A stretch of DNA of 44,052 bases from Betaproteobacteria bacterium (lineage in GTDB: Bacteria > Pseudomonadota > Gammaproteobacteria > Burkholderiales > SG8-41). The notes under the pieces were generated by a model. The model searched no databases. It was not told where the DNA came from and saw nothing but the letters and a program-made list of their open reading frames with translations. Both the position numbers and the translations under genes were made by a program. Below are positions 7,252-8,784 of the stretch, one piece after another (within the stretch, counting starts at the first letter, position 1; every line of letters begins with the position of its first letter). Where the stretch lies: NCBI GenBank assembly GCA_016868015.1, contig VGIF01000010.1, forward strand, positions 1 through 44,052. The letters run 5' to 3'.

Positions 7252-7821
7252 CTACTTAAACGCCGCGCCGTAGTTATCGGTGTAGGTAAATTCGCCGACC
7301 GTCTTGCGCGTGCGCGGTTTCAAATCCTTGGCGCGCACTTCCTCGATCAAGTCCTCGACGCGGCCGCGATAGCCCGCGGCGATCAGCGCCACCGGTTTGG
7401 CGCTGGCGGGGATGTTAAAGCCCTTGACGATTTTGTCGTAGTCCCAGCCCGCCATGGCGTGGATGGTGAGCCCCATGGCATAACCTTGCACCATCATGTT
7501 TTCCATGGCAAAGCCCACGTCGAGCAAATAATTTTGCGTGCCGTTTCTTTCCGGCTGCTCTTCGGGCACGCCGATGATGACCAGTTTAAGCGGCGCCACC
7601 GGCGCCCATTGCTTGTTACCGGCGGAAAGTGCGTCGTCAAAAATGCGATGGGCTTCTGGGCTGGACGCCATCACGATGCGCCACGGCTGGCGGTTATTGG
7701 AGGAAGGCGCCCAGCGGAACGCTTCGAGCAGCGTCTGGACGACTTCGGGTTCCAGCGGCTTGTTGGGGGCGAAGTGGCGATCGCTGCGGCGCTCGCGGAT
7801 GGCGTCGAGTAGTTTGCTCAT
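7252..7821 (-). CDS. nitroreductase-family FMN oxidoreductase
   Basis: The 189-residue protein begins with the family's FMN-phosphate segment IRERRSDRHF (about 8-17) and continues with RWAPSSNNRQPWRIVM at about 36-51, which contacts the flavin in NfsB/NfnB-type enzymes. The conserved central region DVGFAMENMMVQGYAMGL at about 101-118 and a C-terminal GYRGR are also present. Such enzymes are FMN dimers that reduce nitroaromatics, quinones or enones with NAD(P)H. The length is typical and no transmembrane segment is present. It is transcribed leftwards; a candidate small RNA lies just upstream on the opposite strand. The natural substrate is unknown. Confidence 0.9.
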   Translation of the reverse strand: MSKLLDAIRERRSDRHFAPNKPLEPEVVQTLLEAFRWAPSSNNRQPWRIVMASSPEAHRIFDDALSAGNKQWAPVAPLKLVIIGVPEEQPERNGTQNYLLDVGFAMENMMVQGYAMGLTIHAMAGWDYDKIVKGFNIPASAKPVALIAAGYRGRVEDLIEEVRAKDLKPRTRKTVGEFTYTDNYGAAFK

Positions 7822-7989
7822 GTCGTAGCTTTCGGGGTATCCGGGGAATCCGTAAAAAGTTGCGTGCTGAATCGCGACGACGCGTATTGTGCGGCCTTTG
7901 GGGCCAATGTCAAATGACCGGGCGTTGCCGCAGCCTAAACCGATTTTGCCGCGTTGTGATGCAGTTCACAGACAAATCGGCGTGGCCGT

Positions 7990-8080
7990 GGGACACTTCT
8001 TCTAACGCAACCGACCCCCCCTCCTCCTTAGTAGGTTGCGTCCTTCACCGCGCTGGCTTTGCCAGCGCGGTTTTTCTTTT
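7990..8080 (+). ncRNA. candidate small RNA with anti-Shine-Dalgarno loop
   Basis: An 8-bp stem (ACGCAACC at 8005-8012 with GGTTGCGT at 8034-8041) encloses a 21-base loop containing seven C followed by TCCTCCTTA, the same kind of sequence as the 3' end of 16S rRNA. Seven bases later comes a strong intrinsic terminator on the same strand. The nearest plus-strand gene ends more than 1 kb upstream, so this terminator needs a transcript of its own. The 5' end is a guess because no clear promoter was found. The design resembles C-rich-loop sRNAs known from Neisseria and alphaproteobacteria, and the Rfam family of betaproteobacterial toxic small RNAs, but no search was run. Confidence 0.5.
8048..8080 (+). 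terminator. intrinsic terminator of the candidate sRNA
   Basis: CCGCGCTGG at 8048-8056 pairs perfectly with CCAGCGCGG at 8062-8070 across a five-base loop and is followed by TTTTTCTTTT. The T tract gives the plus-strand direction. Confidence 0.85.
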
Positions 8081-8132
8081 GGCGGCGCACCGTCCGCGAG
8101 CGGGCTCGGCAGTGCTGCTACGATGGCTTAGA

Positions 8133-8165
8133 CTATTTAAAAAAATCAATAAAATCAATAACTTA
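8133..8165 (-). repeat. AT-rich dispersed repeat, copy a
   Basis: On the minus strand it reads TAAGTTATTGATTTTATTGA followed by a T-rich tail. It begins ten bases after the stop codon of the GST gene at 8176, in the same sense as that gene. See the finding on the 11-copy family. Confidence 0.8.
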
Positions 8166-8175
8166 CAATTTTCAT

Positions 8176-8784
8176 TTAGTTCGCCGCTGTTTGCGCGAAT
8201 GACGGCCGCGCAAACAGTTTATCGGCGTAGCGTTTCAGGTCCGGATACTTGGCTCGCCAATCGTATTGGGCGTAGGCGCGGTCAAGATAACCCAGCGCCA
8301 TGCCGATGCAAATGTCGCCGAGGCTAAACGCGTTGCCGTAACAAAATTCGTTGGCGCCGATATCGCGCTGCGCGGCGGCCAGGCCGTTTTCGATTTTTTT
8401 AAGTTGCTTTTGGTACCAGTCGGCGCTCACCTCGCACGTGGGTGTGTAGCGCGAGTCGTGTGTCAACGCCACAATGGCATCGGTGATGCCGTCGCCCAAC
8501 GCTTCCCATTGGCGCACTGCGATGCGGGCGTTGAATTCTTGTGGGATCAACTTCGCGCCGCCGCCGATGCCGTCGAAGTATTCGGCGATCACCGAGGAAT
8601 CGATCATGCCTTTGTCGTTATCCAGCACCAGCACCGGCACTTTGGACAGCGGGTTGTATTTGGGCACTTGCGTGCCGGGGTTTGCCGGCCGGTCGGGCAC
8701 GAACTCGCAGTCGACGTTTTTTTCGATCAGCGCGATGCGTGCCTTGCGCGCGTAGGGGCTGGTGGGGGAGCCGAGCAGTTTCAT
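8176..8784 (-). CDS. glutathione S-transferase family protein
   Basis: The 202-residue protein has an N-terminal thioredoxin-like domain (MKLLGSPTSPYARKARIAL, with the likely catalytic Ser in SPTSPY), the cis-proline turn KVPVLVLD and the glutathione-contacting DSSVIAEYFD at about 62-71. The C-terminal helical domain includes FSLGDICIGMALGYLD, the N-capping motif of GSTs. It resembles the bacterial YibF-like group. Such enzymes conjugate or reduce electrophiles with glutathione in the cytoplasm. The gene lies 59 bp downstream of the ABC exporter on the same strand, so the two could be co-transcribed. An AT-rich repeat follows its stop codon. Confidence 0.88.
   Translation of the reverse strand: MKLLGSPTSPYARKARIALIEKNVDCEFVPDRPANPGTQVPKYNPLSKVPVLVLDNDKGMIDSSVIAEYFDGIGGGAKLIPQEFNARIAVRQWEALGDGITDAIVALTHDSRYTPTCEVSADWYQKQLKKIENGLAAAQRDIGANEFCYGNAFSLGDICIGMALGYLDRAYAQYDWRAKYPDLKRYADKLFARPSFAQTAAN

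Follow-up and report, generated by a model that had tools for sequence, protein, structure and literature searches.

A predicted CRP-controlled small RNA gene with an anti-Shine-Dalgarno loop in an uncultured betaproteobacterial genus

A 44,052-nucleotide stretch of betaproteobacterial DNA (the window, by which the whole stretch is meant throughout) carries at positions 8004–8079 what its sequence almost certainly marks as a stand-alone small RNA (sRNA) gene; the case for an anti-Shine-Dalgarno loop that is exposed, and for a terminator belonging to the gene, is strong. The RNA is likely to be a CRP-activated anti-Shine-Dalgarno sRNA that resembles CyaR in its action, without detectable homology to CyaR.

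In the mechanism that we propose, a CRP-like protein charged with its ligand (cAMP, possibly c-di-GMP) would bind at −41.5 and start transcription of the sRNA, a class II CRP/Vfr-type promoter thus driving a trans-acting RNA of about 76 nt (window 7955–8079). The hairpin loop of this RNA would mimic the 3′ end of 16S rRNA, and its sequence CUCCUCCUUA would pair with Shine-Dalgarno sequences that read (A)GGAGGAG, with Hfq probably bound to the U-rich tail. Such pairing would keep ribosomes off the mRNAs, mainly those of periplasmic solute-binding Bug/TctC proteins and of some catabolic enzymes.

Anatomy and Genomic Context of the sRNA Gene

The features of the locus, in window coordinates, are as follows.

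7252–7821, minus strand: divergent nitroreductase-family gene (PF00881), which shares its intergenic region with the sRNA gene
7955–7970, plus strand: CRP/Vfr-type operator TGTGATGCAGTTCACA, a perfect TGTGA-N6-TCACA; centre at 7962.5, predicted to be −41.5
7992–7997, plus strand: −10-like hexamer GACACT, 29.5 bp from the operator centre
8004–8079, plus strand: predicted sRNA gene, transcript of about 76 nt, the ends placed from the −10 hexamer and the terminator
8005–8012, plus strand: stem 1, 5′ arm ACGCAACC, pairing with 8034–8041
8013–8033, plus strand: loop of 21 nt, GACCCCCCCUCCUCCUUAGUA, unpaired in the centroid structure except for one weak pair
8021–8028, plus strand: anti-Shine-Dalgarno core CUCCUCCU, with 100% identity in 12 of 12 orthologs
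8034–8041, plus strand: stem 1, 3′ arm GGTTGCGT, pairing with 8005–8012
8047–8079, plus strand: intrinsic terminator from the terminator scan, with a hairpin of 11 pairs at 8047–8071 and a U-rich tail
8176–8784, minus strand: convergent glutathione S-transferase (GST) gene (GST domains)

An earlier note on this DNA had claimed a stem-loop with an exposed loop, a terminator within seven bases of it, and a distance of more than 1 kb to the nearest upstream gene on the plus strand, and all three are borne out. Stem 1 comprises 8 bp, formed by ACGCAACC with GGTTGCGT, and closes a loop of 21 nt that contains CUCCUCCUUA and has CCCCCCCTCCTCCTTA at 8015–8030; within it, CCUCCUUA at 8023–8030 is what we take to be the usual 3′ end of 16S rRNA. 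A linker of 5 nt leads from stem 1 to the terminator hairpin (11 bp, 3-nt loop), and a T-rich tail follows to 8079. The plus-strand ORF upstream, which encodes NHL repeats, runs to 6965, leaving 1.04 kb up to the predicted sRNA start. The start of the element, put at 7990 in the note, has to be moved, as the predicted transcript begins at about 8004 and positions 7992–7997 are the −10-like hexamer.

The segment 8004–8080 folds with −34.5 kcal/mol as compared with −15.5 ± 2.6 kcal/mol for its shuffles (z = −7.26; 0 of 200 shuffles as good). When the flanks are included (7960–8100), z is −2.88 and 2 of 200 shuffles are as good.

The nitroreductase gene starts 183 bp from the predicted sRNA start and is a neighbour of all 11 genus orthologs of the sRNA. 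Matches to the GST gene come from 5 of the 11 ortholog loci, which are short, and from 5 longer records. The locus is also present in two metagenome assemblies (L054 and L060), the nitroreductases of which are 76% and 85% identical to that of the window; the title Bordetella parapertussis that these assemblies bear looks wrong.

Between the sRNA and GST genes, at window 8140–8165, lies an AT-rich motif that reads approximately TAAGTATTTGATTTTATTGATTTTTT on the minus strand. Motifs of this kind have 183 matches in the 1.24-Mb genome sample, about one per 7 kb (reversed control, 1), with 133 of the 183 copies between called genes; elsewhere there are 14 in 286 kb of G001, 10 in 400 kb of G005, and 11 in 400 kb of G010 (controls, 0). 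The motif is perhaps a 3′-end element or a DNA-binding repeat.

Conservation and Compensatory Changes

A BLASTN survey of 60 genomes (E ≤ 0.01) found orthologs of the sRNA gene in 11 of the 13 other genomes of the genus, and conservation of the loop and stem, the check proposed in the earlier note, held in these 11; 3 further matches cover only the terminator or its downstream side. The window and the 11 orthologs were aligned (alignment A1, 12 sequences) after minus-strand loci had been turned. Mean pairwise identity in this alignment is 93% and 100% in the operator half-sites (the TCACA half being the one with 100%), 85% in the −10 hexamer, 83% and 78% in the stem arms, 100% in CTCCTCCT, 83% in the terminator, and 87% in the U-tract. 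The corresponding values are 34% for the sequence before the operator, 39% for the spacer that follows it up to the −10 hexamer, and 31% for the downstream sequence.

The pairing itself is also conserved. Standard base pairs occupy 93.0% of the pair cells in A1, as compared with at most 46% for slid structures, and the covariation score is above those of all 500 shuffles. Five pairs show changes on both sides (3 of the 8 stem 1 pairs and 2 of the 11 terminator pairs), a number that is reached in 1 of 500 shuffles; further pair types are unremarkable in number (38 of 500 shuffles). The innermost stem 1 pair counted forms in 4 of the 12 sequences, the window not among them, and a terminator pair fails to form in 4 of the 12. 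It is hardly credible that 8004–8079 is a chance hairpin and terminator with no gene: terminator-like sites are indeed expected by chance (5 in 2 kb, as compared with 3.5 ± 2.0 in shuffles), but a z of −7.26, the conservation, and the compensatory changes contradict such a reading.

The distribution of identity also bears on what the loop binds. C-rich loops can bind proteins, and the sequence alone would be compatible with a loop that mainly binds a protein or acts as a sponge for G-rich RNAs rather than pairing with Shine-Dalgarno sequences. The invariant part of the loop is CUCCUCCU, whereas the C run that precedes it varies, and we regard the protein-binding or sponge function as very improbable.

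In two of the 14 genus genomes, G005 and G009, no ortholog was found. A covariance model built from A1 (R1) finds nothing in G005, and its only match in G009 (28.9 bits) is at the site of an RNA that resembles the toxic sRNA family RF02278; the gene is either dispensable in these two genomes or was missed there. The scores of R1 on its own 12 sequences (73.8–96.1 bits) are no independent evidence. There is no second copy in the source genome: at E ≤ 10, BLASTN gives 40 other matches, of at most 33 bases and with E values of at least 0.046.

The Promoter and Its Putative Regulator

The earlier note had called an sRNA with its own terminator, and the gene itself stands; the account of its surroundings fell short, with no mention of the CRP-type palindrome at 7955–7970 or of the divergent nitroreductase gene. 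The distance from the centre of this palindrome to the −10-like hexamer is 29.5 bp in 13 of 13 sequences, with no gap between the two elements in the 12-sequence alignment, and this fixed spacing places the operator centre at −41.5. The hexamer varies to GATACT, GAAACT, and CATACT in the orthologs and to GATAAT in another genus. By eye, no clear −35 element is seen upstream of the sRNA, as at class II sites. The thirteenth sequence, L084 (the same place as L062), is from another genus (g4) and a different locus; it keeps the operator, the spacing, a stem-loop with CTCCTCCTCC, and the terminator, and no nitroreductase match is found with this copy at 1e-10.

The source genome encodes one CRP/FNR protein over the Pfam cut-offs (PF00325 and PF13545 give the same protein; the assembly is 97% complete). 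Its closest sequences in the PDB are Vfr (7.6e-35) and other CRP-type proteins, and its segment SREMVSRV, which is presumably the recognition helix, aligns with SREMVGRV of Vfr. The protein scores 165 bits against the NCBIfam CRP model, under the cut-off of 266 bits. The perfect operator pattern occurs in 3 places in the 4.5-Mb genome, with 1 in the reversed control, which is no clear excess, and sites with at least 9 of the 10 consensus bases number 14 in 1,243,137 sampled genome positions. The other perfect palindromes (the pair L102 and L103) lie, by eye, between genes for a PEP-CTERM-like protein and a ttcA-like protein and upstream of a PilZ-like protein.

From the operator and its geometry, control of the sRNA by a CRP-type protein is very probable, and the position of the operator would predict activation rather than repression. 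The site could instead serve the divergent nitroreductase gene, or act in repression, with the sRNA expressed constitutively or driven in another way. The nitroreductase gene is adjacent in 11 of 11 genus orthologs and the class II distance is itself a prediction, both of which suit this alternative; the distance between operator and −10 hexamer is nevertheless constant across all 13 sequences, in spite of a spacer identity of only 39%, and the operator, this distance, and the sRNA persist in L084/L062, for which no nitroreductase is matched at 1e-10. We therefore consider a nitroreductase operator or a repressing site improbable and retain predicted activation of the sRNA.

Comparison with Known RNAs

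The window has no match in Rfam at gathering thresholds and none with ARAGORN. At E ≤ 10, the segment 7840–8180 gives only a match to mmgR/suhB (23.6 bits) and a terminator-like match on the other strand. Among the titles and abstract openings of open-licence literature, no CRP-activated anti-Shine-Dalgarno sRNA of Betaproteobacteria was found.

The closest comparison in function is with the enterobacterial sRNA CyaR (also RyeE; RF00112), which is described as CRP-dependent and as pairing with the Shine-Dalgarno sequence of ompX (PMC11795201; CyaR is also treated in PMC9002310). In both RNAs the operator centre lies 29.5 bp before the −10 element, a likeness of geometry only; the E. coli MG1655 cyaR operator, picked by eye, is TTAGA-N6-TCACA (8 of 10 consensus bases), and the annotated start of cyaR is one base after the predicted start. 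Both have a seed containing CCUCCUUA (accacctccttagcc in E. coli cyaR) with a terminator directly downstream. They differ in architecture: in the Rfam consensus of CyaR, a long stretch at the 5′ end is unpaired and the seed lies at a short hairpin, whereas the RNA predicted here begins with the stem and has its seed in a 21-nt loop. They differ also in targets, which are OmpX for CyaR and, by prediction, solute-binding proteins for the 8004–8079 sRNA. Membership in CyaR was rejected, as the model (cut-off 47 bits) does not report the window at E ≤ 10; the same model gives 100.7 bits on E. coli cyaR as a positive control, and R1 does not match E. coli cyaR at E ≤ 10. With no cross-match in either direction, the RNA would work like CyaR but cannot be called a CyaR.

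A second comparison is with the RNAs of RF02278, the betaproteobacterial toxic sRNA family. The Burkholderia cenocepacia RNAs ncS03, ncS05, ncS27, and ncS62 are described as double-hairpin RNAs with CU-rich regions predicted to lie over ribosome-binding sites (PMC5688073, PMC4603805, PMC10987360); cells that over-express ncS27 grow more slowly, and the targets predicted for ncS27 belong to uptake and metabolism (PMC5688073, PMC10987360). Like these, the RNA described here is short, with a CU-rich loop predicted to act on ribosome-binding sites in the first of its two hairpins and an intrinsic terminator as the other. The RF02278 RNAs have two CU-rich unpaired stretches, one of them a single-stranded CUCCUCC stretch at the 5′ end (UGUCUCCUCC at and before the stem); the 8004–8079 sRNA, which is predicted to start with AACGCAACC, has one, together with a CRP-type promoter. 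The word CRP is absent from the main text of PMC5688073, which deals with RF02278 RNAs.

The earlier note had pointed to this family and to an Rfam check, which did not support membership: RF02278 (cut-off 50 bits) finds nothing in the window at E ≤ 10. At E ≤ 1 the model matches 8 of 14 control genomes besides 53 of 60 relatives, and its scores alone were therefore used. The RNA could still be a diverged member of the RF02278 double-hairpin family (ncS03, ncS05, ncS27, and ncS62, related to Bordetella S17S) that does the same job from another promoter. Consistent with such kinship, 3 of the 11 orthologs are matched by RF02278, at 28.0, 24.5, and 21.8 bits (the rest are unlisted at E ≤ 10), R1 gives 17–31 bits to RF02278-type loci, and the two-hairpin layout and CUCCUCC loop are common to both. 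Against it, the window is unmatched and the matching orthologs are all under 50 bits; the 5′ CUCCUCC stretch is absent, since the stem opens the predicted RNA; and the same genome has a separate RF02278-like RNA with a different upstream region. This RNA, L045 (G000 C85:10261–10327; 33.7 bits, under the cut-off), has TCCTCCAAAACCTCCTCCTTTGGTGGA and the 5′ CUCCUCC stretch and, by eye, no CRP palindrome in the 75 bases upstream. Descent from the RF02278 family appears unlikely on this evidence, if less so than the alternatives considered above, and we continue to treat 8004–8079 as a separate CyaR-like sRNA. The layout of L045 is also seen, by eye, at loci of 18 genomes of the family.

Other known sRNAs share single traits with the window RNA. 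S17S of Bordetella is a betaproteobacterial sRNA with C/U-rich sites predicted to lie over ribosome-binding sites, and it is linked to many transporter genes; it resembles RF02278 and is thought to be processed from a longer RNA (PMC11722255), whereas the 8004–8079 sRNA is predicted to be a primary transcript with a promoter of its own. In two alphaproteobacterial sRNAs, mmgR/suhB (RF00519) and ar14 (RF02344), a CUCC stretch precedes a terminator hairpin; both were rejected as families: mmgR/suhB gives 23.6 bits on the window (E = 0.0078; cut-off 41), and ar14 is unlisted for the window at E ≤ 10 and gives 22.5–29.1 bits on 3 orthologs (cut-off 58.8). VcdR of Vibrio cholerae, in which four C pair with the translation start sites of sugar-uptake mRNAs, and Spot 42 are sRNAs through which the control of carbon metabolism is connected to CRP; CRP represses both, whereas the operator position here predicts activation (PMC8672173).

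Wider Distribution

An operator-plus-CTCCTCC pattern is present in 10 of 399 genomes of the order, near chance level (reversed control, 4); the positives are 3 genomes of this genus, from which 5 were sampled, and 7 others. A stricter pattern gave 13 stretches in a collection of named genomes, 10 betaproteobacterial and 3 unrelated; the latter, in Streptomyces, Pseudoruminococcus, and an archaeon, were rejected, as they have no such stem by eye.

The R1 model matches 30 of 74 genomes of the family at E ≤ 0.01, the 12 strong matches being its source sequences. The 18 weaker loci that were read by eye (L083–L100, 17 of them outside the genus) show the promoter layout only in L084, and the others were set aside as other sRNAs, terminators, or weak matches; 4 further R1 matches had no locus. 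Two groups recur among these loci. In L083, L085, L088, L095, and L100 (genus g2), a stem-loop of the approximate form GGTAACC..TCTCCTTACGAGTGGTTACC is followed by a terminator, and this is possibly a further class of anti-Shine-Dalgarno sRNA. In L087, L091, L093, and L097, a CCGG..CTCCTCC..CCGG hairpin lies directly 3′ of a gene, the frame of which seemingly ends in PS(L/I/V)KH, an anti-Shine-Dalgarno element in a 3′ UTR.

Candidate Targets

Candidate targets were sought with the pattern AGGAGGAG-N4-9-ATG, in which AGGAGGAG is the exact complement of the anti-Shine-Dalgarno core. The source genome has 14 such sites, as compared with 2 for the reversed pattern. Seven of the 14 belong to TctC frames above the cut-off, 1 to a weak TctC match, and 2 to NMT1-like binding proteins, the Pfam scan having covered 10 of the 14 frames, with the other 4 not Bug by eye; one of the 7 TctC frames (L111) probably starts further downstream. 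Among the simple ORF calls of the background (60 stretches of 20 kb and the window), 87 of 1123 are Bug genes, which gives a binomial p of 3.5e-5 for the AGGAGGAG sites. In all, the 14 genomes of the genus contain 139 such sites, as compared with 32 for the control. Of 28 loci taken from the 125 sites in the 13 other genomes, 10 are Bug genes (background, 70 of 967; p = 1.5e-5), at least 4 frames are too short for genes, and others look by eye like uptake or catabolic genes (TctB-like, PQQ-dehydrogenase-like, and TauD-like proteins). G005, without the sRNA gene, yet has 9 sites (control, 5), and 1 of the 10 Bug loci (L257) comes from it.

The Bug/TctC family is very large, with 395 first-look candidates in the 4.5-Mb genome G000; the 150 of these that were scored are all over the Pfam cut-off.

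The spelling of the Shine-Dalgarno sequences was compared for 15 words in the source genome, with uncorrected p values and with gene starts chosen by 16S-tail pairing, a choice that biases Bug and other genes equally towards strong Shine-Dalgarno sequences. GAGGAG precedes the start in 26 of 87 Bug genes as compared with 28 of 1036 others, and AAGG and GAGGTG show no Bug enrichment in this genome. The words AAGGAG (8 of 87 vs. 36 of 1036, p = 0.016) and GGAGG (24 of 87 vs. 76 of 1036) are enriched in Bug genes as well, which weakens the argument for a specific spelling. Bug genes have stronger Shine-Dalgarno sequences in general, with a median 16S duplex of −9.3 as compared with −7.3, and the difference between sRNA and 16S duplexes is not significant between Bug and other genes (p = 0.06). 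A canonical control, AAGGAGGT-ATG, had too few sites to compare (5, of which 1 is Bug; reversed control, 3). Ranking of single targets by duplex energy (−30 to +6) was useless, as the top consisted of G-rich coding sequence and doubtful starts.

In the relatives, enrichment of GAGGAG failed in G001 (0 of 16 Bug vs. 4 of 254 others) and in G005 (1 of 30 vs. 8 of 310). It is weak in G010 (3 of 24 vs. 6 of 333, p = 0.017), where control words are raised too (AAGG, p = 0.042; AAGGAG, p = 0.017). One G010 gene with GAGGAG (L274) is similar to a gene at L136:19052–19966 that appears to encode an amino-acid-binding protein. When GAGGAG is mapped onto a FastTree tree of the 87 Bug proteins, with branch support left out of account, the 26 positives require at least 23 changes, so one inherited leader is no explanation.

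The target signal is indistinguishable from that of the toxic-sRNA-like RNA L045, which has a similar loop. Taken together, the relatives in which the enrichment failed, the strong Shine-Dalgarno sequences of Bug genes, and this similar RF02278-like loop make a regulon of Bug/TctC uptake genes a hypothesis. Broad blocking of mRNAs by the sRNA is plausible on what the sequences offer, and a candidate target class can now be named for it. That CRP would activate the sRNA and the sRNA in turn repress uptake genes is, as a combined prediction, fairly probable.

Discussion

The locus provides, in a betaproteobacterial genus without cultured members, an anti-Shine-Dalgarno sRNA predicted to be driven from a class II promoter of the CRP type. 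A further-reaching interpretation, which we put forward tentatively and consider rather doubtful, is that the CyaR circuit was invented here a second time and independently, with a regulon that would be marked by the Shine-Dalgarno spelling GGAGGAG in place of the ordinary one, acquired separately by many Bug genes, and not by gene-specific seeds.

If that interpretation is true, one RNA would lower dozens of uptake proteins at once, and a CRP site at −41.5 driving an anti-Shine-Dalgarno RNA would have arisen separately in gamma- and betaproteobacteria. It would also link a betaproteobacterial sRNA directed at ribosome-binding sites to a named regulator and would give a testable rule, by which Bug/TctC genes are switched together through the spelling of their Shine-Dalgarno sequences.
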